DNA of 48,038 nt. Origin: Pseudomonadales bacterium (lineage in GTDB: Bacteria; Pseudomonadota; Gammaproteobacteria; Pseudomonadales; Azotimanducaceae). Shown here piece by piece: positions 4,212 to 21,478 of this stretch. The notes under the pieces were generated by a model. The model saw only the letters and a list, made by a program, of their open reading frames with translations. It searched no databases and was not told the DNA's origin. Each line of letters begins with the position of its first letter. The first letter of the stretch is position 1. The stretch covers positions 1-48,038 of the forward strand of contig SLTB01000283.1 of the NCBI GenBank assembly GCA_007130155.1, read 5' to 3'. Both the position numbers and the translations under genes were made by a program.

Positions 4212-4949
4212 TTGGTGAATACAGCGACGCGACGACTGCCGCGCTCGGCAGCTCAGATCGAGCAGGATGCGAACATCCTCACTTTGGCCAGGGAGGAGCT
4301 GACCCGCTCGGGCTATGACGGCGTGACGATGCAGGCTCTGGCCGATCGCGCCGGTGTGGTGAAGAAGACCCTTTACAACCGCTATGGCAGCAAGGATGGT
4401 CTGCTGCTCACGGCCATTGCTGAAGTCGTCGACAGCTATCGTGGGCAGGCCGCAGCGGCCGAGCCCGGCATTCCTGCCGTCATCGCCATGCGCGTCGGCG
4501 GCAACCGGCAGTTGGTGGCCACCCCCGAATACGCCCAGGCCATGACCCGAGCGCTGATGCAGGCCGATGCTGAACATCCGCTGGTGGCGCTGCTGCTCGG
4601 GGATGCTCTGGTCAGTCAGGTCCGGCATCTCGAGATCGCCGCTGGCCAGGGCGAACTCAAACCCGGCGTCGTACCGCGAGCCCTGGCCGAACAGCTCACC
4701 GGGCACAGCTGGGGTCTGATCCTGCTCTGGGTGAAGGGGCTCTTGCCTCTGTCTTTCTTCGAGCAGCAGTCCCTGGCCGGCATGCTCACCCTGCTTCTGG
4801 CCGCCACGAAAGGCCCGCGTCACGACGCCCTGGCCGCCATGCTGGCCGCAACCCAATCTCAGCGCTGCGGGGATGCCCCGCGTAAGACACCCGGGGAAGC
4901 CGATGCGGCTTCTCCGCGACCATCACTTGTCGGAGGGCAAGCATCATGA
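4212..4949 (+). CDS. TetR/AcrR family transcriptional regulator
   Basis: N-terminal HTH: GYDGVTMQALADRAGVVKKTLYNRYGSKDGLLLTAI. Confidence 0.85.
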   Translation: MVNTATRRLPRSAAQIEQDANILTLAREELTRSGYDGVTMQALADRAGVVKKTLYNRYGSKDGLLLTAIAEVVDSYRGQAAAAEPGIPAVIAMRVGGNRQLVATPEYAQAMTRALMQADAEHPLVALLLGDALVSQVRHLEIAAGQGELKPGVVPRALAEQLTGHSWGLILLWVKGLLPLSFFEQQSLAGMLTLLLAATKGPRHDALAAMLAATQSQRCGDAPRKTPGEADAASPRPSLVGGQAS

Positions 4950-6247
4950 ATCAGCAGGAAATCGCAGAGCTTCGTGCCCTGATGGAGTACGAGGCCAATC
5001 GCACCGAGCCGCCCAAGGCCTTTCCGGATCTGCCGGATCTGCCTGCCGGCCGCTATACGGATCAGCGCTTCTACGAGCTCGAGATGGAACACATCTGGCA
5101 GAAGTCCTGGCTGCTTGCTGCCCACATCGACGAATTGCCGGAGCCTGGCTGCTTCCGGCTCTGGGATAATCTCGGCCAGCCGGTGGTGTTGGTGCATGCC
5201 GAGAGCGGCAACATCAACGCCTTCTATAACACCTGCAGGCATCGTGGTGCGCCCATCGTCACCGAGACCGAGGGCCAGCGGCCGCGGCTGACCTGCAAGT
5301 ACCACGGTTGGTCCTACAGCCACGAGGGTGAGCTGCTGGCCGTCCGCGACCCGGAGGATTTCCGCAACCTGGACTTCTCCTGCCGCAGCCTGATCAAGGT
5401 CCGTTGCGAGCGTTTCGGCAATCTCATCTTCGTCAACTTCGACGACGATGCGCCGACCCTGCTCGAGTGGCTCGGTCCCATCGCCGATGAGTGGAAAGAG
5501 TTCCAGTTCGACAAGTGCCGTCTCTCAGGCAAGCACATTTTCGATCTGGACTGCAATTTCAAGATCGCCATGGAAGCCAACACCGAGGTCTATCACGTCC
5601 CTAGCATCCATCCGAAGACGGTGGCGCCGGCGCTGGATGACCGCCGCAACGTCAATACCCTCTATCCCAACGGTCACGGGCGGATGATTGCCCCGGGCAA
5701 AAAGATGGACTCGGCGCCGGCCTACGAAACCAAGGACGACAAGATCCGTGTCATCGACACGGTGGGCGAGATCGCCCGTACCTGCACCCAGTCCTACGGC
5801 ATCTTTCCGAATTGGGTGTCGCCGCTGACCCATACGCGGCTGCCGCCTCTGCTGTTCTGGCCCAATGGCATCGACAAGTGCCGGCTGGAGACCTGGACGC
5901 TGTTGCACGACTGGGGTGACGGCCCCAAGCCGGAGGTCGGTGATTTCTGGACCACGCCCGACGGCTCTGAACTCAACGTGGTGCTGCAGGAGGACACCCA
6001 GTTCGGTGCCTTTATCCAGAAATCCATGGAGTCCAAGGGTTTCAAGGGCGTTCCGCTGTCCTACCAGGAAGCTCGGATCTATCACTGGAACCAAAACGCG
6101 GACCGGATGATCGGTATCGACAATATTCCTCCGGAGCTTCGCGTCGAACAGGTCATCGGCGAGGAGTGGATCTATCCGAACGATCCTCGGGTCGAGGAGA
6201 TGGCCGAAGCCGAAGCCGAGGCCGCAACGAAGCGCAACGCCGGTTGA
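4946..6247 (+). CDS. Aromatic ring-hydroxylating oxygenase, Rieske [2Fe-2S] alpha subunit
   Basis: CRHRGAPIV...CKYHGWSY Rieske motif; EANTEVYHVPSIH mononuclear iron region; overlaps the upstream TetR stop by 4 nt. Confidence 0.9.
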   Translation: MNQQEIAELRALMEYEANRTEPPKAFPDLPDLPAGRYTDQRFYELEMEHIWQKSWLLAAHIDELPEPGCFRLWDNLGQPVVLVHAESGNINAFYNTCRHRGAPIVTETEGQRPRLTCKYHGWSYSHEGELLAVRDPEDFRNLDFSCRSLIKVRCERFGNLIFVNFDDDAPTLLEWLGPIADEWKEFQFDKCRLSGKHIFDLDCNFKIAMEANTEVYHVPSIHPKTVAPALDDRRNVNTLYPNGHGRMIAPGKKMDSAPAYETKDDKIRVIDTVGEIARTCTQSYGIFPNWVSPLTHTRLPPLLFWPNGIDKCRLETWTLLHDWGDGPKPEVGDFWTTPDGSELNVVLQEDTQFGAFIQKSMESKGFKGVPLSYQEARIYHWNQNADRMIGIDNIPPELRVEQVIGEEWIYPNDPRVEEMAEAEAEAATKRNAG

Positions 6248-6296
6248 AGCTTCGTTTTCGGTCCTGATCGCGAAGCTGCAGGGAGGCTGGGGAGAG

Positions 6297-7565
6297 GTGA
6301 GGGGTATGGCGGAAACACAACTGTCTGCCAAGCGGTCCGGCGCCGGAGGCCGTGACATCCGTGAGGAGCTCGTGGCGGTGGCCAGGGAGACGCTGCGCCA
6401 CGCGGAGGCAGGCAGCCTGCGCCTCGAGGCAGACGTCATGGAGATGGATGCGGCGCTGTACACCGACCCGGAGCACTTCGATGCGGAGCGCCGCCTGCTG
6501 TTCCGGCGCATACCGCTGATGCTCGCGGCGAGCTGCGAGTTGCCGGAACCGGGCGACTACAAGGCCATGGAGGTCGCCGGGGTACCGGTGCTGTTGGCCC
6601 GGGCTGACGACGGCGTGGCCCGCGCCTTCCTCAACCAGTGCACCCACCGTGGTGCCCAGCTCGCTGACGGTTGTGGCAAGGCGCGTCGTTTCGTCTGTCC
6701 CTACCATGGCTGGTCCTTCGATCGTAGCGGTGCGCTCCTGGCGGTGGCCGCAAGCGATACCTTCGGCGAGGTGGACAAGGCTGTCAGGGGACTGCGCGCC
6801 TTTCCGCTGCTGGAACAGGGCGGGTTGATCTGGGTGGTTCTCGATCCGGAATCGAAGCTCGACATCCGAGGCTTTCTGGCGCGATTCGGCGTCATGCTCG
6901 AGGGCTTCGATTTCTGCTCCTGGCACTACGTCGGCAGTCGCACGCTCAAAGGTGCTAACTGGAAACTGGCCTTCGATGCCCACCTCGAGTTCTACCATGT
7001 GCCGGTGTTGCACAAGAACACGTTCGGACCGTCGGCGCCGAGTAAGGCGCTCTACCATGCCTACGGGCCGCACCTGCGGCTGACCGCACCGATGAAGCCG
7101 ACCCACCGCAGTTCCGGGGCACCGGGACATGCGGACCTGTTCGCCCAGGCCCACTGGCCGGAAGAGGCCTGGACCGAGGAAGCGATGATGCTCGGCGAGT
7201 GGATCGTGTTTCCGCACGTGTCCATCAACAGCTTCTACAACGGCGGCCGCGGCGTGTTGATCTCTCAGATCTTCCCCGGAGAACGCGTCGACGAGTCCTT
7301 CACGGTACAGACCTACCTGATGGCAGACCCTCCGGACGAGGCGGCGCGCGCGGCGGCAGCCGAACTCTGTGATTTTCTGGGTCACGTGGTGAATGACGAG
7401 GACCTCGTGACTTCGGTGAAACAGCAGCGGGCCCTTTCCACGGGCCTGTATCCCGTGGTTTGCTTCGGTCGCAACGAGGGTGGACTGCAGCACTTCCATC
7501 GCTGGGTGGAGCGCATCATGCAAACCCCGGATGAGGGGCTCGATGAGCTGCTCAGCGACGTTTGA
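6297..7565 (+). CDS. Second Rieske [2Fe-2S] aromatic ring-hydroxylating oxygenase alpha subunit
   Basis: CTHRGAQLA...CPYHGWSF; FDAHLEFYHVPVLH. Start may be the internal ATG at 6306. Confidence 0.9.
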   Translation: MRGMAETQLSAKRSGAGGRDIREELVAVARETLRHAEAGSLRLEADVMEMDAALYTDPEHFDAERRLLFRRIPLMLAASCELPEPGDYKAMEVAGVPVLLARADDGVARAFLNQCTHRGAQLADGCGKARRFVCPYHGWSFDRSGALLAVAASDTFGEVDKAVRGLRAFPLLEQGGLIWVVLDPESKLDIRGFLARFGVMLEGFDFCSWHYVGSRTLKGANWKLAFDAHLEFYHVPVLHKNTFGPSAPSKALYHAYGPHLRLTAPMKPTHRSSGAPGHADLFAQAHWPEEAWTEEAMMLGEWIVFPHVSINSFYNGGRGVLISQIFPGERVDESFTVQTYLMADPPDEAARAAAAELCDFLGHVVNDEDLVTSVKQQRALSTGLYPVVCFGRNEGGLQHFHRWVERIMQTPDEGLDELLSDV

Positions 7566-7609
7566 GGCCGCAGCCCGCCACAGGATAACGACCGGTCTGG
7601 AGTACATCG

Positions 7610-8827
7610 ATGGCAAGTGAACACCGGCTTTTGCGCAATGCCCGCCTGTTCACGGCGCTCGACGAGGCGGTGATCGAGCCCGGAGCGGTGTGGATCGAGG
7701 GCGACCGCATCCGTTTCGCGGGTGCTCAGGCCGATCTGCCCGAGCTGCCGGCAGACTGCGACGTCACGGATGTAGGCGGCAAGTTCGTCATGCCCGGCAT
7801 GACCGAGACCCATGCCCATCTGTCCTTCGCCGACTCGAGTCCCTTCGCTATCGGTGCGACGACGGTGGAGACGGCCACCATCACGGCGGTGCGCAACGCC
7901 GATCTCATGCTGCGTTCGGGCTTCACCTCGGCCATCAGTTTCGGCTCCACCTACCGCATCGACGTGGCCCTGCGGGATGCCATCAACGGCGGCCGCATCA
8001 AGGGGCCGCGGCTGATGGCCGCCGGTCGTGATCTTGGCGCCACCGCCAGCAACGTGGATTCTCCCGGTGGTCTGAGCCAGATCGCCGACGGCCCCTGGGC
8101 CCTGCGTCAGGCGGTGCGGGAGCAGCGCAAGCAGCTGGTCGACGTGGTGAAGATCTTCATCGACGGTGAGGCTATCAATCCGGTCAATCCGCCCGGAGAG
8201 CTGTCCTTCTGCGACGAGGAAGTGGCGGCCATCGTCGACGAGGCCCATCGGCGGCGGCTGCGGGTGGCCTGTCATGCTCGATCGGCTGCGGCAGTGAAGC
8301 AGGCCGTGCGTGCCGGGGTGGATTTCATCGGCCACGCCAACTATGTCGATGACGAAGCCGTCGACCTGCTCGCCACCGCCGGCAAACGGATCTACGTCGG
8401 TCCGGCCATTGCCTGGGAAGTGCAGTACTACGCCCAGTGCGAATCCTTGGGCGTATCCAAGGAGACGGTCCGTGCCCAGGGTTACGTGGCGGAGATCGAA
8501 GCCACCAAGGTGGCCGTGGCCAAAATGCGTGCTGCCGGCATCAAGCTGGTGGTGGGCGGCGACTACGGCATCAGCATCGCTCCCCACGGCACCTACGCGA
8601 AAGATCTCGAATACTTCGTCGATCTGTTCGGCATGCCGCCGGCTGAGGCGCTGATCTGCGCCACCCGCAACGGTGGCGAGGCCTTCGACCCGAAAGGTCG
8701 GGCCGGCGTCCTGCGCGACGGCGCCTGGGCGGATCTGGTCATCGTCGACGGTGATCCCATGACGGACATCCGTGTCCTGCAGGATCACAGCCGACTATCG
8801 GTATACAAGGCCGGGCGCGCCGTCTGA
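7610..8827 (+). CDS. Amidohydrolase family protein
   Basis: 405 aa; GKFVMPGMTETHAHLSF metal-binding motif; RVACHARSAAAVKQAVRAGVDFIGHA; C-terminal GRAGVLRDGAWADLVIVDGDPMTDIRVL. Confidence 0.88.
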   Translation: MASEHRLLRNARLFTALDEAVIEPGAVWIEGDRIRFAGAQADLPELPADCDVTDVGGKFVMPGMTETHAHLSFADSSPFAIGATTVETATITAVRNADLMLRSGFTSAISFGSTYRIDVALRDAINGGRIKGPRLMAAGRDLGATASNVDSPGGLSQIADGPWALRQAVREQRKQLVDVVKIFIDGEAINPVNPPGELSFCDEEVAAIVDEAHRRRLRVACHARSAAAVKQAVRAGVDFIGHANYVDDEAVDLLATAGKRIYVGPAIAWEVQYYAQCESLGVSKETVRAQGYVAEIEATKVAVAKMRAAGIKLVVGGDYGISIAPHGTYAKDLEYFVDLFGMPPAEALICATRNGGEAFDPKGRAGVLRDGAWADLVIVDGDPMTDIRVLQDHSRLSVYKAGRAV

Positions 8828-8837
8828 GGCGCCGCGG

Positions 8838-10370
8838 TCAGGCGGAGGCTTCCTCCCAGTAGCGGTCCCGCAGCAGGCGCTTGTAGAGCTTGCCAGTCTG
8901 GGCCCGGGGCAGCTCCGCCATGAAGTCGATCTGCCGCGGAATCTTCACGCCTGAGAGGTGCTTGCGGCAGTAGGTCGAAAGCTCGGCGGCGAGATCCTCG
9001 CCTGCATCGGCCATGTCCACGGGCTGAATCACGGCGATGACGCGCTCCCCCATCTCCGGGTCGGGTCCGCCCACCACGGCTGCATCCATCACCTTCGGAT
9101 GATCCACCAGCACGTTCTCGATCTCCTGGGGATAGATGTTCACGCCGCCGGAAATGATCATGAAGCTCTTGCGGTCGGTGAGGTAGAGGTAGCCGTCCTC
9201 GTCCATCCAGCCGATATCACCTAGGGTGGACCAGCCGTGTTTGTTGCGGACCTCGCGGGTCTTCTCGGGATCATTGTGGTAGCTGAAGTCGTTGCCGCCT
9301 TCGAAGTAGACCAGTCCCTCGCTGCGCGGTGGCAGCTCGTCGCCTTCCTCGCTGCAGATGTGCACGGTCCCGAACACCGCCTTGCCGACCGAGCCCTTGT
9401 GGCTGAGCCACTCCTGGGCACTGATGAAGGTCATGCCGTTACCCTCAGAGCCGGCGTAGTACTCCTGAACAATGGGGCCCCACCATTCGATCATGGCCTC
9501 CTTGACGGGAACCGGGCAGGGTGCGGCGGCATGGATCACCGCCTTCAGTGAGGAGATGTCCTTGGCCTGACGGACCTCGTCGGGCAGTTTCAGCATGCGC
9601 ACGAAGTGGGTGGGCACGAACTGGCCGTGGGTGATGCGCTGCCCTGCGATGACGTCCAGCGCCAGTTCGGCATCGAACTTCTCCAGGATGACCGTGGTGG
9701 CGCCCAGGCGCTGGATGGCCATGGTCCAGCCCAGGGGTGCGGCGTGATACAGCGGCGCCGGGGTCAGGTAGATGCTCTCTGCGGTGGCGCCGAGCAGGTG
9801 GCCGACCAGTTGTGGCAGCAGCTCCGGAGTATCGGCGGGGTCGTCCGAGGGCGCGGCCGGCGCCACGCCCTTGGGACGACCGGTGGTCCCAGAGGAGTAG
9901 AACATCACCATACCGCGGCTCTCGTCGGCAATGGGTGTCTTCGGTTGAGCGGCCAGGGCCTCTGCCCAGGCCTGATAGCCATCGATAGCCTCGCCGGTGG
10001 TGAAGCGGGTGACGCCGGTGGTCAGCTTCGCGACTTCTGCGCGCGCGGCGGTGACCTGGCCGGAAGTGAGGAGCACCCGGGCGCCGCTGTCCTCGACGAT
10101 ATAGGCCAGCTCTGCCGGCGTCAGGCGGGAGGAGATCGGCACGAAGTAAAGCCCGGCCCGCTGGGCGCCCCAGCAGAACTCGAAGACTTCCGGACAGTTC
10201 TCCAGGCAGAACGCGACGGCCTCGCCACGCTTGACGCCCAGGGCGCGGAAGAGCTGTGCGGCCTGATTGGCCCGGGCCTCCAGTTCGCCGTAGGTCAGGG
10301 TGCTGCCGCTCGGCTCCATGATGACGGCCGGCTTCTCGGGGGTCGCTGTGGCGATATGGCGTGGATGCAT
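8838..10370 (-). CDS. Acyl-CoA synthetase (AMP-forming)
   Basis: MVMFYSSGTTGRPKGV P-loop-like motif, YLYLTDRKSFMIISGGVNIYPQEIENVL, PRAQTGKLYKRLLR. Start placed at the internal ATG (MHPRHIATATPEKPAVIM). Confidence 0.9.
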   Translation of the reverse strand: MHPRHIATATPEKPAVIMEPSGSTLTYGELEARANQAAQLFRALGVKRGEAVAFCLENCPEVFEFCWGAQRAGLYFVPISSRLTPAELAYIVEDSGARVLLTSGQVTAARAEVAKLTTGVTRFTTGEAIDGYQAWAEALAAQPKTPIADESRGMVMFYSSGTTGRPKGVAPAAPSDDPADTPELLPQLVGHLLGATAESIYLTPAPLYHAAPLGWTMAIQRLGATTVILEKFDAELALDVIAGQRITHGQFVPTHFVRMLKLPDEVRQAKDISSLKAVIHAAAPCPVPVKEAMIEWWGPIVQEYYAGSEGNGMTFISAQEWLSHKGSVGKAVFGTVHICSEEGDELPPRSEGLVYFEGGNDFSYHNDPEKTREVRNKHGWSTLGDIGWMDEDGYLYLTDRKSFMIISGGVNIYPQEIENVLVDHPKVMDAAVVGGPDPEMGERVIAVIQPVDMADAGEDLAAELSTYCRKHLSGVKIPRQIDFMAELPRAQTGKLYKRLLRDRYWEEASA

Positions 10371-10437
10371 GCGGGGGATCTCCTGTGAATGCGCGCAGGA
10401 AATCCTACGCAACCGCACCGGGCTGCGCAGGTTTTTT

Positions 10438-10909
10438 TCACCGTTGGTCCCTGGCCGGCGGCAGCCAGCGCAGGTAGGCCAGCATCCCCAGCAGTTCCGC
10501 CAGCGACTGGAACACGATCACCAGGGCAGCGCACTTCAGTGCTTCCGGCGGGGCCAGGCAACAGGATCAGCCCCAGAAAGGCCATGAGCAGCGCCTGCTG
10601 CGCCAAAGCTGTGACAAACTCCGTACTGAAGAATACTGTCAGGTAGAACGGCAAGGCGATGGCCTGCAACAGCAGACTGACCGGCGCGAAGGCGATGGCC
10701 CGGCGGCTGTCGCCCCCGCCCAGCTGAGGGCCGGGCGCAGTTCACCCAGCGGCACCTGCACGAAGGTGGCATAGAGCAGCAGACCCAGGGCCGGGCACAG
10801 CAGCTGCGTCAGAGAACCGCCGAGCTGCGGCAGCGTGACGCAGATCAGCAGACCGAGGCCAGTGGCCAGCAGATAGAGCAGGATCTGGTTTCTTTCGAGG
10901 GATGCCATA
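10438..10909 (-). pseudogene. Arsenic resistance protein (ACR3/bile acid:Na+ symporter fold) remnant with internal deletion and frameshifts
   Basis: MASLERNQILLYLLATGLGLLICVTLPQLGGSLTQLLCPALGLLLYATFVQVPLGELRPAL (frame of 10639..11001), then LLLQAIALPFYLTVFFSTEFV in another frame, then LVIVFQSLAELLGMLAYLRWLPPARDQR*. Confidence 0.7.
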
Positions 10910-10913
10910 GCAG

Positions 10914-11900
10914 ATGCGCAGGTCAGGGAACATCGTCGGGCTGCTGGTTGCCGTCGGCATCCTACTAGGGGTGTATCTGCAGCGAGGCGCTGAACCTGCA
11001 TTCAGTTTGGGCGACTACGGTGCCGAGGCCAGCGCGGCGGCAGGGGCGGGGGGATTCGAGTGCCGCATCCCCTATGGTGTCCGCATCGGCGATATCGATG
11101 CCGCGTTCGGTATGAGTCGCGTGGATCTCGAGGGCGCTTTGCGCGAAGCCTTCGCGGTGTGGGAATCCTATGCGCAGAGGCCGCTGTTTCAGCTCAGGGA
11201 CAGCGCTTCCGCCACGCCGGTACATCTGCGCTTCGACGAGCGCCAGGCTCAGAGCGACGAGATGGCCGAGGAGCGTCGCGCCCAGGAAGACATTGCGATC
11301 GAGATCGATCGCATGCGGGCTGAGCTCGAGAGCTACCGGCGGGAATTCGAGGGCAAGCGGGCGGCGCTTCATGACGAAGCCGATGCCTACGCGAGGGCGG
11401 TGCGCACTTACGAGGAGTGGGTCGCGGCCTTCAACCGTTCCCGTAGCCAAAGCCAGGCCGAGCAGCGCCTCCTGACCTCTGAGCGGGAAGCCCTGGATCG
11501 GGAGAATCGGCGCCTGCAGGGACTGCAGCAAGAGCAGCAACTTGACCAGGAGCAGTTCAACCGCCGAGTCGAGGCCTTCAACCAGGAAGTCGCGGGCCTG
11601 AACGATCGCTCCCGGGTGGCGGCCGCGGCTATGGCGGGGCATGGTCCGGTGGGTGCGGGGCGCTTCATGAGGATTGCCCGCAGCGAGAGTATCGAGGTTT
11701 ATCTGGTGACGTCCTATCCGGATCTCGTGCTGACCCTGGCACACGAGCTGGGCCATGCCTTGGGCATCGACCATGTGGAGGGTGCAGGTTCGATCATGAG
11801 CGCGGTCAACAGCGGGCCCTCGTCCGGGCGGATCGGGACCCTGATGCTGAGCCGGGAGGATCGAATGGCGCTGGAAGCGGTCTGCGCAGGACGGATCTGA
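10914..11900 (+). CDS. Matrixin-like (M10-type) zinc metalloprotease with a long coiled-coil insertion
   Basis: HELGHALGIDH zinc motif plus downstream SIMSAV Met-turn-like sequence; about 130 aa charged helical insert. Confidence 0.75.
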   Translation: MRRSGNIVGLLVAVGILLGVYLQRGAEPAFSLGDYGAEASAAAGAGGFECRIPYGVRIGDIDAAFGMSRVDLEGALREAFAVWESYAQRPLFQLRDSASATPVHLRFDERQAQSDEMAEERRAQEDIAIEIDRMRAELESYRREFEGKRAALHDEADAYARAVRTYEEWVAAFNRSRSQSQAEQRLLTSEREALDRENRRLQGLQQEQQLDQEQFNRRVEAFNQEVAGLNDRSRVAAAAMAGHGPVGAGRFMRIARSESIEVYLVTSYPDLVLTLAHELGHALGIDHVEGAGSIMSAVNSGPSSGRIGTLMLSREDRMALEAVCAGRI

Positions 11901-11909
11901 CGGCGCCTG

Positions 11910-12143
11910 TCAGTGTCGGCGAAAGGGTGCGTCCTTGCGCATCCGCTCCATGTTCTCCCGCAGTGCGGCACCGTACCCGGTCTGCACATCCGCCGAATGC
12001 GTGTCCTGCGGCGGTACCTCCCTGCTGGTCCTTCGGCGTCGCCAACGAAGCATCCGCAGTATGACCGCGATGGTGATCAGGATCGCCAGCGCGGCGATCG
12101 AAGCCTGGGCTGAAGCGCCGATGGATGCGAGTCGGTCGAGCAT
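11910..12143 (-). CDS. Small single-pass membrane protein, unknown function
   Basis: 77 aa; one TM segment IAALAILITIAVILRMLRW followed by an Arg-rich stretch. Confidence 0.45.
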   Translation of the reverse strand: MLDRLASIGASAQASIAALAILITIAVILRMLRWRRRRTSREVPPQDTHSADVQTGYGAALRENMERMRKDAPFRRH

Positions 12144-12454
12144 CGTTGCTCAGCAGGTGGTTTCTGATCGGCCACAGGCTACACGGGTTCGAGATGATTC
12201 CAAAGTCCAATCATGGATGAATGTTGCAGGGCGGTTCTGGGGTGGCCGATCCGTCACGGCTGCTCTGTTGACAGGCTGCAGGCCCGCCTATAGCTTCCTG
12301 AGAGCATTCACGCATAAATGTCAATGAAAACGAAGGGGAAGGGATGGCTAGCCCGCAAACCTCACCGGTTCACGGCTGCGGACGCGGATATGCCGGCGAA
12401 TCCTGCCGGTCCGCCGCGGCGGTTGCGCTGTTGCGCACCATCCCTGGCGCGCAC

Positions 12455-12506
12455 CTTGTCTTTTCCGACATCTCCACGCCCTCGCTTCGCGCATCGGTGA
12501 GAGATT
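12455..12506 (-). repeat. Dispersed repeat, copy 1 (other copy inverted at 36504..36555)
   Basis: Reverse complement CCGATGCGCGAAGCGAGGGCGTGGAGATGTC-G-GAAAAGACAAGG; matches the other copy over 44 nt with one mismatch. Confidence 0.7.
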
Positions 12507-12594
12507 CGGGCCAGGGTTATGGGTCCCAAGGGCATGAGTTGTGCTGGTTTCGCGGGGCTGGCCATGGCCTCGATGCCCTATGCCGATGGCGCGT

Positions 12595-12912
12595 GCTGGC
12601 AATCTCAACATCGGCCTGTCGGCCGATGCGTTGTACAGTGACAGTTCCAACGGCGACACGACCCAGTCGCCGTTCACGGTGCAAGGCAGTTACTGGAAGC
12701 TCAATGCAGCCATGAACGTGTTCATGAGTGATGGCCACAAGACGGATTCGGCCACCGGCAGGAATCTCACCGACCAGTACACGTTCGTCAACTCTGGTTC
12801 GGTTCCCGTCGAGGGGTCCGGAACCGGGACGGCCGCGGGTGTTCCGGCGGATATTCTCGCGCTGCTGCAGCCTGTTCGCACAATCTCGTTGCAGATCATC
12901 TATTGCCCCTGA
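12595..12912 (+). pseudogene. TonB-dependent receptor C-terminal relic
   Basis: QSPFTVQGSYWKLNAAMNVFMSDGHKTDSATGRNLTDQYTFVNSGSVPVEGSGTGTAAGVPADILALLQPVRTISLQIIY aligns by eye with the last ~100 aa of the TBDR at 19103..21478; no plug or barrel upstream. Confidence 0.8.
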
Positions 12913-12926
12913 CAGAAGGTAGACAC

Positions 12927-13667
12927 ATGCCAGAATCGATGCAGAACAAGATCGTCGTGCTTACCGGCGCGGCCTCCGGTATCGGTGCCGAGGTGGCGCG
13001 GCAGATTGCCGCTGCCGGCGGCCTGCCAGTGATCCTCGATGTGGACGCGGCACGGGGCGAACCGCTGGCGAAGGAACTTGGTGGCCGCTTCATCCGCTGT
13101 AACGTCGCCAACCGGGAGGAGTGGATGAGCGCCGTGCAGTCCCTGGTGGATGCTGGCGAGATACCCGATTACGCGCACCTTAACGCTGGCATCATGAGTC
13201 AGCGGGCCGATGAGCCCTTCATGGCCATCGAGGATTTGCCCGTCGAGAACTACCGGCGCATCCTCGGCGTCAATCTCGATGGCGTTGTGTTCGGCCTGCA
13301 GGCATTGCTGCCCCATATGCGCAGCCGTGGTGGCGCGATCTGCGTGACGGCCTCACTGGTGGGCCTGGTACCGCTGCCCATCGACCCCATGTACTCGACC
13401 ACCAAGCATGCCCTGGTGGGGCTGGTGCGTAGCGTGGCGGCAGGAAACGAGGATCCTAAGCTGCGCATCAACGCCATCTGTCCAGGAGGGGTGGATACCC
13501 CCATCGTCCCCTCCGCGTTGCGCGCAGAGGGGATGGCCATGATGTCGACGACCAGCTTGGCGGGTGAGGTCGTGGATCTTCTGGTTCAGGGCGCCAACGG
13601 TGAAGTCAGGGTGCGACTGGGCGAGGACGCGCCGGCCTTCGGTGTCCAGGTTCCGCAGTTCGGCTAG
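12927..13667 (+). CDS. Short-chain dehydrogenase/reductase (SDR)
   Basis: VVLTGAASGIGAEVARQIAAAG cofactor motif; YSTTKHALVG active-site motif. Start at the internal ATG (MPESMQNK). Confidence 0.92.
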   Translation: MPESMQNKIVVLTGAASGIGAEVARQIAAAGGLPVILDVDAARGEPLAKELGGRFIRCNVANREEWMSAVQSLVDAGEIPDYAHLNAGIMSQRADEPFMAIEDLPVENYRRILGVNLDGVVFGLQALLPHMRSRGGAICVTASLVGLVPLPIDPMYSTTKHALVGLVRSVAAGNEDPKLRINAICPGGVDTPIVPSALRAEGMAMMSTTSLAGEVVDLLVQGANGEVRVRLGEDAPAFGVQVPQFG

Positions 13668-13686
13668 GGCGACAGGGAGAGAGACC

Positions 13687-14136
13687 ATGACCTGGCTGAC
13701 CGCCGATCGTGAGGATGCTTCACTCGACGACCTGCTGGCTCATCGGCCGGAATTGCAGGTGAAATATCGCGCCTTCTACGGTTCCATCCGTGAAGCGGGG
13801 CTGGTTCCGCCGCGCCTGCTGGAGATCTGCCGCCTGCGTATGGCTGCCATTCACGACTGCGAAGCGGAGTGGTCGCAACGCGACGCCGAAGTCGAGCTGA
13901 CCGAGGCGGAGCTGGCCGCCTTGAGGCGGGGCGAGCTGAAGGGCTTTGCACCGGCAGAGCAGGCAGCGCTGGTCGTCACGGAGCGGCTGCCCTATCAGCA
14001 TCACGAGCTGACGGACGCCGAGGTGGCGAGCCTGAAATTTCGGCTCGGTGATGCCGGCTGTGTGTCGCTGATCAATGCGTTGGTGCTTTTCGATGTCAAT
14101 TGCCGGTTGAAGCTGGCCTTCGATCTGAAACAGTGA
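13687..14136 (+). CDS. Carboxymuconolactone decarboxylase (CMD)/AhpD-like protein lacking the second motif Cys
   Basis: 149 aa; LLEICRLRMAAIHDCEAEWSQ corresponds to the E-x11-C-x-x-C region with Glu at the second Cys position. Confidence 0.75.
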   Translation: MTWLTADREDASLDDLLAHRPELQVKYRAFYGSIREAGLVPPRLLEICRLRMAAIHDCEAEWSQRDAEVELTEAELAALRRGELKGFAPAEQAALVVTERLPYQHHELTDAEVASLKFRLGDAGCVSLINALVLFDVNCRLKLAFDLKQ

Positions 14137-14187
14137 GGCTGTGAACCGGCATCATTTGAAGATCAGAATCCAAGAGGGAGACCGACC

Positions 14188-14700
14188 ATGTCCACGGAAC
14201 CCAGAGTTGCCTCGGCGGTTGCCGGGCAGCCCGCCAGCTTCCCTACGGTGCTGGCGCACACGCCTGATACCACCGGCAAGTTCTTCGATCTGTATGCGGA
14301 GTTCTGGCAGCGGGGTGTGGCGTCGCTGACCGTGAAGGAAATGACCCGCATGCGGAACGCTCGGGTCACCGACTGCGCCTTCTGAAAGAACGTTCGTTTT
14401 GACTCCGTCCGTGAGGCGGGGCTGGATGAAGGCAAGGTCGACCTGATCGAGGACGGCTACGAGAGCAGACTGCCGGATGCGGAAGTGGCGGCACTCAAGC
14501 TCACCGACGTGCTGATCGGCATGCCACGGCCATTGACGCCGGAGCTGCAGGCAGCGCTCAGGCGCCACTACAGTGATGCCGAGGTGGTGGAGATGGCCTT
14601 AGGCGTCGGCCTGTTTCTGGGCATGTCCAAGCTGCTGATTGCGCTGGGTCTGGAACCCGAGGACATGGAGACCACGCTGACGCCGACACCGGGCAGCTGA
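14188..14700 (+). CDS. Candidate selenoprotein: CMD/AhpD-like protein with in-frame TGA (14383..14385) at the second Cys of CxxC; alternatively a nonsense-mutated pseudogene
   Basis: EMTRMRNARVTDCAF[TGA]KNVRFDSVREAGLDEGKVDLIEDGY...AEVVEMALGVGLFLGMSKLLIALGLEPEDMETTLTPTPGS; same frame on both sides of the TGA; next stop at 14698; GAGGGAG-like RBS before 14188; P450 starts 10 nt after the end. Confidence 0.6.
14398..14426 (+). promoter_or_regulatory. Candidate bacterial SECIS stem-loop
   Basis: CTCCGTC (14403-14409), loop CGTGA (14410-14414), GGCGGGG (14415-14421): 7 pairs including two G-T; lower stem TTTG/TGGA can extend after one mismatch. 24 nt between TGA and the loop; G at loop position 2. 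Confidence 0.45.
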
Positions 14701-14710
14701 GGAGAACGGC

Positions 14711-16000
14711 ATGACGACGGCCAAAGATACGACGACGATCGGGGACTATCACTTCCTCGAGCTCAACGAGGCGCTTCTGCAGAATCCCTATCCCTTCTAC
14801 AAGCAGCTGCGGGAGCAGGGACCGGTGTGCCAGGAGCCGGACTACGGCGTCTATCTCGTCGGTACCCTGGACGCGATCCGCGAGGTCAATCGGCAGCCGG
14901 AAGTGTTTTCCAGCATCCTGGTGGCGAACGCACCCTATGTGGATCTGCCCTGTCCTCTGGACGAGACGGCCGCATACCGGGCGTCCTGTCCCTTCGGTGA
15001 CAAGATCCTCTCCAACGATCCCCCTGATCACACCCGCCACCGGAAGCTGATCAATCGCTTTTTCACCACGGCCCGTGTCCGTCAGCTCGAGCCGAGAGTC
15101 CGTCAGATCGTCAACGACGTCATCGACACCTTCATCGACGCCGGTGAGGTGGAGTTCGTCACCGGCTTCGCCCACATGGTCCCGCGGCTGGTGGTGGGAG
15201 AGCTGATCGGCCTGCCGGAAGACGATCAGGCCCACTTCAAGGCCTTCTTCGAGGACCGGTTGCACGTCATGGCCAAGGCCGCCGAGCAGCCGCTGTCCGG
15301 CTTCCAGCAGCGCATGCAGAATACGGACGGCCTCACCGAGGACGCCTTCCTGCGGAACTATTTCGTCCACGCCATCGAGGCCCGCCGCCGTCAGCCGGCC
15401 GACGACCTCATGAGCGAACTCGCCAACGCCCGCTTCGAGGACGGCGAACTCGTGCCGCTGGAGTCGGTGGTGAGCATGATCTCGCTGCTCTACGCGGCCG
15501 GTGGCGACGCCAATACACCGGAACTCATGACCAATGCCATGCTGGTGTTGCTCGACCGTCCCGAACTCGAGGAGGCGGCCCGCAGCGATCCGGCGCTGGT
15601 CAAGGACATCATCGAGGAGGTTCTGCGTTACGACACGCCCGTTCCCGGCGTGTTTCGCATCGCTCTGCAAGACACTTCAGTTGCGGGTGTGCCTGTTCCT
15701 AAGGGCGGGATCGTCATGGTGGTCTATGCCTCGGCCAATCACGATGAGCAGTACTTCGAGGACCCGGAGACCTTCAAGGTGGATCGCGAGTTCCGTCATC
15801 CGCATCTGGGCTTCGGGCTGGGTGTGCACTTTTGCCCGGGCGCGCCGCTGGCGCGGCTGGAAGGTCAGGTGGCGGTGCAGGAGATCCTGCGCAGGATGAC
15901 GTCGATCCGCAGACTCGAGACCGGGCCGGTGCCCTATGTCCCGTCGGTGATTCAGCGTATTCCCATCCTGCTTCGGCTGGGGTTCGAACAGGCGTCTTGA
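14711..16000 (+). CDS. Cytochrome P450
   Basis: Heme-ligand motif HLGFGLGVHFCPGAPLARLE; YAAGGDANTPEL I-helix region; EEVLRYDTP (ExxR). Confidence 0.95.
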   Translation: MTTAKDTTTIGDYHFLELNEALLQNPYPFYKQLREQGPVCQEPDYGVYLVGTLDAIREVNRQPEVFSSILVANAPYVDLPCPLDETAAYRASCPFGDKILSNDPPDHTRHRKLINRFFTTARVRQLEPRVRQIVNDVIDTFIDAGEVEFVTGFAHMVPRLVVGELIGLPEDDQAHFKAFFEDRLHVMAKAAEQPLSGFQQRMQNTDGLTEDAFLRNYFVHAIEARRRQPADDLMSELANARFEDGELVPLESVVSMISLLYAAGGDANTPELMTNAMLVLLDRPELEEAARSDPALVKDIIEEVLRYDTPVPGVFRIALQDTSVAGVPVPKGGIVMVVYASANHDEQYFEDPETFKVDREFRHPHLGFGLGVHFCPGAPLARLEGQVAVQEILRRMTSIRRLETGPVPYVPSVIQRIPILLRLGFEQAS

Positions 16001-16112
16001 ACGCGGGCTGATGGCTGGCCTGCCCCTGGTCGCGGCGTTCATGCCCGTAAATCAATTGTGCTAGCCTTGAAGCAATGGGGGCGAACCGCCGGCTCGAAGG
16101 TGTCACGCTACG

Positions 16113-17450
16113 ATGAGAATCTGCACAACGGCCATGCGGGCTGCTTTGGCTGCGCTCCTCCTGCTGTCCGCCGCCGTCTCCGGCTCTGACGAGATCCTGT
16201 TTCAGAATGTCCGCATCTTCGACGGCCGGTCGGAGCAGCTTTCCCCACCGACTCGCCTGCTCGTCAGCGGCAACCGCGTCGCCGCTGTGGGCGATGACCT
16301 TGCGGCCAGCGCCGATGCCAGCGTGATCGACGGCCGGGGCTACACCCTGATGCCGGGACTCATCGACGTGCATGTGCACCTCACCTTCGGTGCGCTGACC
16401 ATGCCTGAACTCGTGTCTCCGGATCTGACCCCTGAGCGCGCCGAAGCCGCGGCGGCACGGGAAGCGGAGGCCATGCTGCTGCGTGGCTTCACCGCCGTGC
16501 GCGACGCGGGTGGGCCGGTCTGGGGTCTGAAGGCCGGCATCGATGGCGGGCGCTACGTCGGACCGCGCATCTGGCCTTCCGGCGCCACCATCAGTCAGAC
16601 GGCCGGCCACGGCGATTTCCGCATGCCCCACGAGCGCTCCCGGCGCTTCTTCGGTGAGCCTTCCCGTGCCGAACTCCTCGGGGCCACGTTCATTGCCGAC
16701 GGGCGTGCCGACGTGCTCACGGCCGTCCGGGAGAACCTTCGCTTTGGCGCCAGCCAGATCAAGCTGATGGCGGGCGGCGGCACGTCCTCGGCCTACGATC
16801 CCGTCGACGTCACCCAGTACACCCTGGATGAGATGAAGGCCGCCGTGGAAGCGGCCGAGGACTGGGGTACTTACGTCACCGTCCACGCCTACACGCCACG
16901 GGCCGTACGACGGGCCATCGAGGCGGGCGTGAAGGTGATCGAGCACGGCCAGATGCTGGACGAGGAGACGCTTGCGCTCATGGTGGAGCATGGCGTCTGG
17001 CTGTCGGCCCAGACCCTGCGCGCCAGTACGCCGGATATGGATCCGCTGCGACGCGCCAAGCGGGCACCGGTGATTCGTGGGCAGGCACGCATGTGGCCCA
17101 TGGCCAGGGAACTGGGCGTCAAGATCGCCTGGGGTACGGATTTTCTGTTCGAACCCGCGCTCAATCGCGAGCAGAACGCCTTCATCCTTCTGCTGCGCGA
17201 GTGGTACTCGCCGGCGGAGATCCTCAAGCTGCTGACTCACGATAATGCCCGGCTGCTGGCCCTGTCCGGTCTCCGCAGCCCCTATGAGGGACGCCTGGGT
17301 GTGATCGAAGAGGGCGCTTTGGCCGACCTGCTGCTGGTGCGCGGCAATCCCCTGGAGGATCTGGAGCTGATCGCCGACCCGGAGCGCAATTTCCTACTGA
17401 TCATGAAAGATGGCGGGATCTTCAAGAACACGCTTGCCGACGCCGACTGA
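16113..17450 (+). CDS. Exported amidohydrolase family protein
   Basis: Signal peptide-like N-terminus MRAALAALLLLSAAVSGSD; LMPGLIDVHVHLTFG; VTVHAYTPRAVRRAIEAGVKVIEHG; AWGTDFLF. Confidence 0.88.
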   Translation: MRICTTAMRAALAALLLLSAAVSGSDEILFQNVRIFDGRSEQLSPPTRLLVSGNRVAAVGDDLAASADASVIDGRGYTLMPGLIDVHVHLTFGALTMPELVSPDLTPERAEAAAAREAEAMLLRGFTAVRDAGGPVWGLKAGIDGGRYVGPRIWPSGATISQTAGHGDFRMPHERSRRFFGEPSRAELLGATFIADGRADVLTAVRENLRFGASQIKLMAGGGTSSAYDPVDVTQYTLDEMKAAVEAAEDWGTYVTVHAYTPRAVRRAIEAGVKVIEHGQMLDEETLALMVEHGVWLSAQTLRASTPDMDPLRRAKRAPVIRGQARMWPMARELGVKIAWGTDFLFEPALNREQNAFILLLREWYSPAEILKLLTHDNARLLALSGLRSPYEGRLGVIEEGALADLLLVRGNPLEDLELIADPERNFLLIMKDGGIFKNTLADAD

Positions 17451-17507
17451 GCGGTTTCCCCGGCAATCGGCGTCGGGTCAGGCGATGGCGGCAGCGGGAT
17501 GCCGATC

Positions 17508-18797
17508 TCAGAACGCCGACGCCCCTGGCAGATACCGCTCCCGGTTGCGTACGTCGAACTCGATATTCAGGTGCGCGAGGCCCCTGAGGAAAGCGTTGGG
17601 GACGTGCGCAAAGCGCTCGTTGGGATCCTGGGGCCGGATGTTCTCGAGCCGGTTCAGCAATATGGTGAAGGTGGAGAACATTTCCTGCCGCGCCAACGGG
17701 GCGCCGGGGCAGTGGTGGGGACCTGAACCAAAGGCCAGATGGGCGCCGGCCTTCTTGCGCATGGGATCGAAGTTCTCGCCGTCCTCGAAGACCTCCTCGT
17801 CGCGGTTGGCCGAGGCGTAGCCTAAGGCCAGTCGCGCGCCCTTGGGAATCTTCACGCCGCCAAGCTCCGTGTCCTGTGTGGCCACCCGCTGCAGGTGCAG
17901 CACCGGGGTCTCGTAGCGCAGGGACTCCTCGATGAAATTGCGCAGCGCCTTTTCGTCATCCCGCAGCGTTTCCATCAGCCCCGGCCGCTGCAGCAGCAGC
18001 ATCATGGCCGAGCCGATGGCGTTGGTGGTGGTTTCGTTGCCGCCGGTGAGCAGCTGATCGAGCAGGTCCTGGAGCTCGTACATGTCCAGGGGCCGCTCGG
18101 GGTCACCCGGCTCGTCCACCACCCGGGCCTGGACCAGATCGGTGATAATGTCCTCCTTCGGTTCCTTCCTGCGCTCAGCCATCACCTCGGCGAAGAACTG
18201 CTGGGCCTCCACCACCAGCTTGGCGGACTCGATGGCGGCGGCCTCGTCGAGGAAGCCGCTGCCCGGCGCGAGCATGGCGTCGGACCACTCCTTCAGGCGC
18301 CAGATCTGCTCCCGCGGCACACCGAGCTGATCGGCGATCACCGTGCAGGGCAGGGGAATGGCGTATTCCCAGACGAAGTCGCATTGGCCCTTGTCGATGA
18401 AGCCGTCGATGAGGTCGTTCACCACCGTCTCCACATAGTCGGTCATGCCGCGGACGCGCTTGACCGTGAAGGACTGATTGATGAGCGCTCGATACTTGGT
18501 GTGCACCGGCGGATCGGTGCGCTGCAGGGTGGACACCCGCTTCCAGCCGTTCTCGGCCTTGTAGCGCTCGGCGACGTTGCGTTCCATGGGGTTGTTATTG
18601 GCCAGCACGAAAACATCGTTGGAGAACAGCTCCGGGTGCTTTTTGACGTAGCGCAGGTCCTCGTAGCGGCTGACGTAGTAGGCACCGAGCTCCTTCATGA
18701 AGAAGACGGGCTGCTCCTTGCGGATGGCCTGGAAGTAGGCGAAGGGACACTCCCGGGTCTGATCTTCGAGGAGGTTGTAGTCGGTCAGGGTGCTCAT
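17508..18797 (-). CDS. Cytochrome P450
   Basis: Heme-ligand motif HLAFGSGPHHCPGAPLARQE; LLTGGNETTTNAIG; EESLRYETPVLHLQR. Confidence 0.95.
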   Translation of the reverse strand: MSTLTDYNLLEDQTRECPFAYFQAIRKEQPVFFMKELGAYYVSRYEDLRYVKKHPELFSNDVFVLANNNPMERNVAERYKAENGWKRVSTLQRTDPPVHTKYRALINQSFTVKRVRGMTDYVETVVNDLIDGFIDKGQCDFVWEYAIPLPCTVIADQLGVPREQIWRLKEWSDAMLAPGSGFLDEAAAIESAKLVVEAQQFFAEVMAERRKEPKEDIITDLVQARVVDEPGDPERPLDMYELQDLLDQLLTGGNETTTNAIGSAMMLLLQRPGLMETLRDDEKALRNFIEESLRYETPVLHLQRVATQDTELGGVKIPKGARLALGYASANRDEEVFEDGENFDPMRKKAGAHLAFGSGPHHCPGAPLARQEMFSTFTILLNRLENIRPQDPNERFAHVPNAFLRGLAHLNIEFDVRNRERYLPGASAF

Positions 18798-19102
18798 GGT
18801 CGGAAGGTTCCGTTGCGCTGTGATGAAGCGACAGTAGCAGGTGGCGGGGTGCGGTCAAGTCATGCGTGCTGGTGAGCGAGTGCTTGCGGGCCTGTGCTGG
18901 GAACCGGCCTCCCACGGGGGCACGGAAAGGACAGCGCAGATCCCTGCTGTAGGGGCTTGGCACCTAAACGTTTTGACGTCATAACGCTACGACTCTCACA
19001 GCTCACCTTCGGCGTTTGTGCAGAAACGCCGGGCTGTCTGTCTGAGAACGCTGAGCCGGGCTGTGTCAGTCTCGAGCAACAGCAGCCCGGCATCTGGGCG
19101 TC

Positions 19103-21478
19103 CTACATCCGATAGGTCAGCTGCAGGTTCACGGCCCGCCCGCGCTGGACAACGGCCTGGGTGTCGGCGGGGATACCCTGTGGCGTCCCCGTCCCGCCGC
19201 CGGTGGTGGGCGTGGCTCCGGCGCCGGTGAAGGTGTACTTGTCGGTCAGGTTGCGACCCAGCAGCGCCAGTTCCCAGCGGGCATCGTCGCTCATGATCCG
19301 GGCAGAGGCGTTGAGCTTCCAGTAACTTCCCTGAATGGTGAACGGAGAGTGCTGCGTGCTGGCGTTGAAGCTTCCCGAGTAGCTCGCATTGGCCGCGATC
19401 GCCATGTTCCAGCCCGGCACAATGGCCCGCTGATAGTCGAAGCCGATCAGCCCGCTCACCTTGGCTGCAGTTGCCAGCCGTTCACCGGTCAGGTCCTGCT
19501 GCGTGAACGCGTTGCCAATCTGAACGAGATCGCAGCCCTGATCCGGCCGCTGGCCTGCCCAGCAGTCGCCGATGAAGTCATCGTATTCGGTGTCGAGCAG
19601 GTTCAGGGCGCCGATCAGGGTCAGGCCGTCCACGGCGGCGGGCAACCACAGGGCTTCCAGCTCGAGACCGAGGATGGTGGCCTTGGCGACGTTGAGGATG
19701 CGCAGGGTGGTGGTGTCGGGGTCGAAATTGCCCAGCTGCAGGTCCGAGTAGCGGTAGCGGAAGGCCGTGGCGTTCAGCCGCAGCGTGTTGTCGAGCCAAG
19801 TGGATTTCATCCCGGCTTCGAAGCCCTCGACCTCCTCTTCATCGTAACGCAGCTCGTGGGGCCCGGGCCCGGCGAATGCCGGGTTGAAGCTGCCGTCGAG
19901 ACCGCCGGATTTGAAGCCCTGCTTGTAGGAGGCGAAGAACATCAGGTCGTTGCGCGGACGCCAGGTGGTGGTGACTTCGGGAGAGAGGTTGCTCCAACTT
20001 TCCGAGTCTGCGGTGGTGTTGACCGGATTACCGAAGGATGCGACGTCGACCTTCTTTCGCTCCCGGCTGTAGCGTGCGCCGGCAGACACCTCGATGTCGC
20101 TGGTGATGTCCCACAGGAGCTGACCAAAGACGGACCATGCGCGCTGATCCTGGGTCATACGCTGGCTGCCGACCGGAAGGGGTATGAACACACCTGCCAG
20201 CGCCTCGGTGAGGGCGGGTGCGAGATAAGCCGCAGTTTCGGTGACGGCGTCTTTCTCCTCGTAGTAGCCGCCGATCAGGAAGTTGACGGGGCCTTCGAAG
20301 CCGGAAGCGAGGCGCAGTTCCTGGCTGATCTGTTCGTGGCCGTATACCGTGGCGCGCATGATGCGGTTGGCTGGTTCGAAACCGAATTCGCCCTGCTCGT
20401 CTTCGTCGAGGTCGATATAGCCGGTCACCGAAGTCAGGGTGAAGCCGTTGGGGAGCATGTAATCCAGTTCCAGGCTGGCGATCTGCATGCTCGTGTCCTG
20501 CAGGCCTTCGGGCTTCGAGGGATCGAACAGCGGGTCGGCCGCCAGCACGTCGGGGTGCAGGTTGCCAGAGAAGGACACGCCGTCGGCACGGCAGTCGTCG
20601 ATCTGAATGAAGGCCTGGGGAACGCCGAGTGGGCAGGCGACGCGTTCATTCAAGGCGCTGCCACCACGGTTGCGCTCGTCCTCGTAGTGGGTGAACTTGG
20701 CGCGGATCTGCAGCTGCTCGTTGGGATTGGCCAGCAGGGTGCCGCGCAGAAACAGGCTGTCGCCATTGGGATAGCGGCTCGGCTGGGGCTCGAAGGCCAG
20801 CCCCGGAACGTCGGCTCCGACGAATTTCCGATGGCCATCGGACTTGGTGTAGGCGGCTGCCAGACGGACGCCCACCTGATCGGAAAGCGGTGCCGAGATG
20901 ACGCCACGAACGATGCGCTCGTCGGCCTCGAACTCGTAGGTGCCGGAAAGCTCCAGCTCGAACTCGTCGCCCGGATCGGCGGTGCGGAAGGCCAGTACGC
21001 CGCCCGGACTGTTCTTTCCGAAGAACAGGGCCTGGGGACCGCGCAGGACGTCGATCTGCTGAACGTCGAACATGGAGGCACGCGCGATGTGCCCGGTGTT
21101 GACCGGGATGCCGTCAATGTTGATGGCCACGGCCTGATCGATGAGGGCGCTGGTTCCGGAAGATCCGATACCACGCAGGAAGATGCTGGTGCCGGTCTGG
21201 CCGCTGCTGTCGCTGACCAGCATGCCCGGCGTGAACTCGGCGACATCCTCGACCCGGTCGAGACGGAAGGTCTCTGCGAAATCCGCCGTGAACGAGGTCA
21301 CGGCCACCGGCGTGTCCTGCAGCGATTCCTCCCGCTTGCGGGCGGTCACCACGATCTCCTCGATCTGGCGTGACGCGCTGCTGCCTGCCGGCTGCTGTGA
21401 CAGGGCAGGTGCTGCGGTAATGAGTCCGGATGTCAGTAGCGCCAGCGTCCAAGCCGGTCGTGGGCAGCGTCCCGTCAT
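19103..21478 (-). CDS. TonB-dependent receptor
   Basis: 791 aa; signal peptide; IEEIVVTARKREESLQDTPVAVTSF TonB box/plug; LRGPQALFFGKNSPGGVLAF; C-terminal GRAVNLQLTYRM. Confidence 0.95.
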   Translation of the reverse strand: MTGRCPRPAWTLALLTSGLITAAPALSQQPAGSSASRQIEEIVVTARKREESLQDTPVAVTSFTADFAETFRLDRVEDVAEFTPGMLVSDSSGQTGTSIFLRGIGSSGTSALIDQAVAINIDGIPVNTGHIARASMFDVQQIDVLRGPQALFFGKNSPGGVLAFRTADPGDEFELELSGTYEFEADERIVRGVISAPLSDQVGVRLAAAYTKSDGHRKFVGADVPGLAFEPQPSRYPNGDSLFLRGTLLANPNEQLQIRAKFTHYEDERNRGGSALNERVACPLGVPQAFIQIDDCRADGVSFSGNLHPDVLAADPLFDPSKPEGLQDTSMQIASLELDYMLPNGFTLTSVTGYIDLDEDEQGEFGFEPANRIMRATVYGHEQISQELRLASGFEGPVNFLIGGYYEEKDAVTETAAYLAPALTEALAGVFIPLPVGSQRMTQDQRAWSVFGQLLWDITSDIEVSAGARYSRERKKVDVASFGNPVNTTADSESWSNLSPEVTTTWRPRNDLMFFASYKQGFKSGGLDGSFNPAFAGPGPHELRYDEEEVEGFEAGMKSTWLDNTLRLNATAFRYRYSDLQLGNFDPDTTTLRILNVAKATILGLELEALWLPAAVDGLTLIGALNLLDTEYDDFIGDCWAGQRPDQGCDLVQIGNAFTQQDLTGERLATAAKVSGLIGFDYQRAIVPGWNMAIAANASYSGSFNASTQHSPFTIQGSYWKLNASARIMSDDARWELALLGRNLTDKYTFTGAGATPTTGGGTGTPQGIPADTQAVVQRGRAVNLQLTYRM

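Follow-up and report, generated by a model that had tools for sequence, protein, structure and literature searches.

The window, i.e., the whole stretch of 48,038 nucleotides from a Pseudomonadales bacterium that was analyzed here, contains a gene at positions 14188 to 14700 whose product is strongly supported by comparative sequence evidence as a selenoprotein of the AhpD/CMD superfamily. As a whole, we consider it highly probable that an in-frame TGA in this gene is decoded as selenocysteine (Sec66) through a SECIS hairpin and that the product, most likely as one enzyme with the CMD-like protein encoded upstream, would perform redox chemistry of the AhpD type. The features of this locus are the following, each with the evidence that bears on it:

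12927..13667, + strand: SDR-family dehydrogenase, operon member at this locus only (a minority of orthologs have relatives of it nearby)
13687..14136, + strand: CMD-like partner gene with C-x-x-E instead of CxxC, probable second subunit (directly upstream of orthologs)
14188..14700, + strand: AhpD/CMD-like selenoprotein gene, 170 aa with Sec66 (reading frame, orthologs, all-helical model)
14383..14385, + strand: in-frame TGA, read as selenocysteine (column conservation across loci, Sec machinery in the genome)
14403..14421, + strand: SECIS hairpin with a 7-bp stem (14403-14409 / 14415-14421) and the loop CGUGA (14410-14414) (covariation, SECIS rules)
14711..16000, + strand: cytochrome P450, a local neighbor only (source genome and G004)

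The in-frame TGA and its decoding

The frame of the candidate selenoprotein gene begins with ATG and ends with an ordinary TGA stop at 14698-14700, and the sole interruption of its 170 codons is the TGA at codon 66, which is followed by another 104 codons. It lies in the context E51-MTRMRNARVTD-C63-AF-U66-KNV-R70, i.e., at the second position of a C-x-x-C motif that becomes C-x-x-U, with a spacing of 12 between Glu51 and Cys63 (E-x11-C). A first-pass annotation of this DNA had already described an ORF from 14188 with an internal TGA and about 104 further codons, the Glu-to-Cys spacing of 12 with TGA in place of the second Cys, and gaps of 19, 51, and 10 nt between the SDR and CMD genes, the CMD gene and this ORF, and the ORF and the P450 gene, and we read the frame and its surroundings in the same way. 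Homology continues past the TGA as far as the C-terminus of the product. Besides ending this gene, TGA also terminates the preceding gene of the same operon and thus acts as a normal stop there, which rules out a genome-wide recoding of TGA.

A search of 119 related genomes recovered close orthologs at 54-92% identity, nearly all of them with one TGA, and an alignment-based search of 207 genomes of the bacterial family yielded 44 full-length orthologs, of which 42 have TGA and two (G002 and G031) have Cys. When the DNA was read directly at 45 loci, i.e., these 44 and a frameshifted TGA copy in G484, TGA was found in 43 and TGC in the two Cys orthologs, always in the same column. The G484 copy (G484:C18:38727-39317, in L107) is split over two frames by a frameshift or an assembly error. 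Most of the ortholog genomes are multi-contig drafts, and independent ones agree. More distant homologs (G082, G091, G075, and G134) carry C-x-x-C at the same site, so that the in-frame TGA is aligned with a Cys of homologs as expected for a bacterial selenoprotein. A 49-row tree groups the two Cys orthologs together with full support and nests them inside the Sec group, where the backbone around them is only moderately supported; this position suggests a single reversion from Sec to Cys.

Bacterial selenoproteins are also expected to occur alongside selA, selB, selC, and selD, and all four are present in the source genome (4.12 Mb, with 98% completeness and 2.7% contamination). Intact selA-selB genes followed by tRNA(Sec)/selC lie on one contig, where the tRNA-Sec scores above the Rfam cut-off and ARAGORN concurs with the anticodon TCA. 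On a separate contig, selD takes the form of an Ndh-SelD fusion of 771 aa (L010:1363-3678, minus strand), which scores above the selD cut-off in its C-terminal part and resembles an NADH dehydrogenase in its N-terminal part; fusions of this kind have been described before (PMC2398784). Among the genomes of our first sample, selA was found in all 14 that carry the TGA gene (in G032 only as a fragment where a contig ends) and tRNA-Sec in all 10 of those that the tRNA-Sec search covered. The Cys outgroups G082 and G091 gave no tRNA-Sec in this search, and G082 no selA either. Because nearly the whole family has selA, finding gene and machinery together says little within the family and more in comparison with other families.

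Bacterial SECIS elements are described (PMC13188914) as having a loop of 3-9 nt on a stem of 4-16 bp, a G in the first two loop positions, a distance of 16-37 nt from the UGA, and an energy of at most -7.5 kcal/mol. The hairpin at 14403-14421 falls within these limits with its 5-nt loop, 7 bp including U-G pairs, 24 nt between UGA and loop, -8.9 kcal/mol, and a G at loop position 2 that is followed by U. The lowest-energy fold of the source sequence alone displaces the two innermost pairs by a single base. Single-sequence folding of 65 nt around the TGA gave a stability not above that of shuffles (z -0.09), 10 of the 43 orthologous hairpins do not reach -7.5 kcal/mol when taken alone, and an Rfam search of the hairpin stretch returned nothing beyond a chance match (E 1.1). 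With the single-sequence fold unremarkable and these stems weak on their own, the case for the element rests on covariation.

In the aligned 60 nt from the TGA, columns 21-27 pair with columns 33-39 around the consensus loop C-G-U-G-N. Across 20 sequences, 98.6% of the stem cells are paired and 17 cells are changed on both sides; none of 500 shuffles matched the pairing or the covariation score, and all slid-partner controls scored far lower. The five inner pairs are kept, with a single exception, at the 43 TGA loci; two of them, 24/36 and 27/33, are C-G at some loci and U-A at others, which takes 5-8 separate switches on trees built without the hairpin stretch. Since these two pairs lie at third codon positions, they are not imposed by the protein sequence. 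The Arg codon in the loop is CGT at 43 of 43 TGA loci, although all six Arg codons occur at codon +4. Of the seven pairs, the two Cys orthologs retain only 3 and 2.

The proposal of the first-pass annotation that Sec occupies the second CxxC position of an AhpD/CMD-like protein has thus gained support from homologs with Cys and others with TGA, from the four sel genes in the source genome, and from a SECIS element near the TGA, for which we found the 7-bp hairpin with its CGUGN loop directly downstream. Two outcomes that it had named as refuting, a genome lacking selB/selC and an absence of TGA homologs with Cys in all close relatives, are contradicted by these data. That the TGA is instead a true stop or a sequencing error, leaving a pseudogene or two short ORFs, is hardly credible to us. 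This idea draws on the a priori concern about a single draft genome with an in-frame TGA and on the one frameshifted copy in G484, but it is contradicted by the identical TGA that 42 of 44 full-length orthologs share across many genera, by conservation of protein and SECIS across and beyond this codon, by Cys in the same column of the outgroups, and by the complete Sec machinery of the genome. We rejected it given that the TGA column and the homology downstream are conserved among orthologs.

Protein family and key residues

An AlphaFold2 model based on an alignment of 22 orthologs is all-helical (pLDDT 80.9) and has its best fold matches in PA0269 and other AhpD-like proteins, with the Bmp8 debrominase ranking lower; phmmer found the same nearest structures. 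PA0269 and Pseudomonas AhpD (2ijc, 2o4d, 7xw1), the solved structures nearest in both sequence and fold, have the E-x11-C-x-x-C framework in common with the product of 14188-14700 but carry Cys instead of Sec and His instead of Arg, and the fold alignment gives 23-25% identity. Bmp8 (6ohi, 6ohj) belongs to the same fold class, but its function is not indicated for our protein by this lower-ranking match.

Across the 22 orthologs, E51, C63, and U66 are invariant and reproduce the AhpD framework E-x11-C-x-x-C(U). The AhpD signature also includes a catalytic His four residues after the second Cys. At this position, which aligns with the His of PA0269, the lineage has an invariant Arg (Arg70), and AhpD peroxidase chemistry should therefore not be assumed for this protein. 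In the curated family models it scores 29.3 bits against a cut-off of 81.8 for TIGR01926 (AhpD-like) and, as its best value, 30.2 against 310 for NF053654 (YciW-related (seleno)protein). No cut-off was reached among TIGR01926, TIGR00778, NF041047, NF041238, and NF053654, and no Pfam or NCBIfam model reached its cut-off on this product: for PF02627 (CMD) it scores 17.6 against a gathering score of 23, whereas the Cys ortholog L026 (35.4) and the outgroup L029 (30.6) pass. The AhpD label given by the first-pass annotation calls for caution: the E-x11-C-x-x-U framework and the fold agree with it, but the catalytic His is replaced by Arg, and the product stays below the cut-off of every AhpD or peroxidase model.

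A constant partner gene among changing neighbors

The CMD-like gene lies directly upstream in 43 of the 44 loci that have upstream sequence, frequently with a 1-bp overlap; this count includes the partners in G571 and G572, which are divergent copies with a 1-bp overlap. In the one exception, G008, the partner is present on another contig. The partner protein lacks the CxxC pair, with no Cys at all at these positions in the outgroups and some orthologs, and mostly retains the Glu, an HH motif, and an FFDVxCR-like motif. It is also encoded directly upstream of the Cys homologs in the outgroups G082, G075, and G134, and in G091 the partner and the Cys homolog form a single protein of 356 aa (L030:877-1947). 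As pairing and fusion already exist around these Cys homologs, the two-part CMD/AhpD-like module is probably older than its use of Sec.

All other neighbors vary. A P450 gene follows directly downstream only in the source genome and G004 among the ortholog loci, while SDR homologs of more than 50% identity occur at or near a minority of loci, in a few genera and on either side of the gene. Elsewhere, the neighbors resemble acyl-CoA dehydrogenases, a Rieske oxygenase, acyl-CoA ligases, gamma-glutamyltransferase-like and other genes, as judged from the appearance of their sequences and mostly without family scans. With P450 in two genomes and SDR in a minority of loci, we ruled out both as general functional partners. 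The first-pass annotation had tied the putative redox enzyme to a P450/SDR pathway; this link is not supported by the comparison of loci, in which the constant neighbor is the upstream CMD-like gene. The wider surroundings in the window (4946-21478) look like a catabolic island, whose ORFs resemble an acyl-CoA ligase, a TonB receptor, and two each of Rieske oxygenases, P450s, and amidohydrolases; these labels were judged mostly from sequence, and the SDR and one P450 were scanned against families.

From the pairing, the co-occurrence, and the natural fusion, we infer that the CMD-like partner and the selenoprotein most likely form one hetero-oligomeric enzyme, and together these observations suggest that the two-subunit enzyme arose when an older Cys module acquired Sec. 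Alternatively, the selenoprotein could act alone as a homo-oligomer, in the manner of stand-alone AhpD-like proteins, with the CMD-like gene encoding an independent enzyme that is merely co-transcribed. We regard this as somewhat unlikely. It would fit the separate contigs of the two genes in G008, the single-gene nature of the related solved AhpD-like proteins, and the paralogous CxxU genes of the family (L032-L042), beside which no partner match was found in the short flanks available. Against it stand the pairing in 43 of 44 loci, many with 1-bp overlaps, while every other neighbor changes, the co-occurrence even in G008, and the fusion in G091 together with the Cys outgroups that are already paired.

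Predicted chemistry and place among known selenoproteins

Under the favored hetero-oligomer model, SelB and Sec-tRNA would bind the hairpin at 14403-14421 and decode the UGA at 14383-14385 as Sec66; the product would be an all-helical AhpD/CMD-like protein of 170 aa whose redox pair is C63-x-x-U66. The Cys-poor CMD-like protein would be co-produced from the upstream gene and assemble with it. By analogy to AhpD, the Sec66 selenolate, aided by E51 and R70, may attack a peroxide or another electrophilic oxidized substrate, after which Cys63 would resolve the intermediate as a selenenylsulfide that a cellular dithiol could then reduce. A peroxide or other oxidized substrate is our default assumption in keeping with this analogy. 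Because the remaining neighbors vary among catabolic genes, the enzyme probably acts on different substrates in different hosts or on general oxidative damage.

Sec might also serve other chemistry, e.g., a Bmp8-like reductive removal of halogens or other leaving groups from a catabolic intermediate, in line with the Bmp8 structures 6ohi and 6ohj among the fold matches, the Arg in place of the AhpD His, and catabolic neighbors such as P450, SDR, Rieske oxygenase, acyl-CoA dehydrogenase, and acyl-CoA ligase. We consider this quite unlikely given that Bmp8 ranked below PA0269 and the AhpD-like structures and that the neighbors vary, with none recognized as halogen-related. A slightly better, though still doubtful, prospect is an obligate selenoenzyme of two CMD-fold subunits, where the Cys-poor sister would complete the active site or substrate pocket of the CxxU subunit with its Arg for His, again for non-peroxide catabolic chemistry.

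Selenoproteins of the CxxU type named AhpD-like 1, AhpD-like 2, and CMD domain-containing are known from the Sargasso Sea in 2005 (PMC1088965) and from the GOS dataset in 2008 (PMC2398784), and AhpD-like and CMD-like forms also appear in a 2026 review. According to the parts of the two earlier papers drawn on here, they have in common with our protein the AhpD/CMD superfamily, Sec as the second residue of CxxC, and a SECIS directly downstream, and those parts mention no partner gene; our product differs from them in scoring below TIGR01926 and the Pfam CMD model. The lineage may overlap one of the 2005 or 2008 clusters, since it is set apart from them by models and descriptions rather than by the cluster sequences. 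NF041238 (AhpD_rel_CFYUT, hypothetical protein 1) and NF053654 are models of AhpD-related "(seleno)proteins" with weak similarity to our product or its paralogs; NF041238 gave no match to the product itself, nor to the G091 fusion of similar length. We place the lineage as a probable new branch within the already known AhpD/CMD-like CxxU selenoproteins, with Arg for His, a dedicated sister gene, and scores below the model cut-offs.

Many of the 207 genomes also carry AhpD-like paralogs (L032-L042, e.g., L033:1501-1980 and L039:1501-1932) in which an in-frame TGA appears within CFTU or CxYU; a strong hairpin, different in each, follows the TGA immediately. They probably represent one or two additional selenoprotein groups, and none was found in the source genome. 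AhpD-like genes with an in-frame TGA were further seen in another family of the same class (L068, L078; G208), where our motif search did not recover the TGA context.

Ordinary annotation likely truncates such genes at the TGA or omits them, and the selenoprotein described here was missed by the curated family models that we searched. The decay of the SECIS in the two Cys orthologs provides natural controls for it, and the constant sister gene, which probably predates the Sec form, offers a concrete lead to the function of AhpD/CMD-like selenoproteins.
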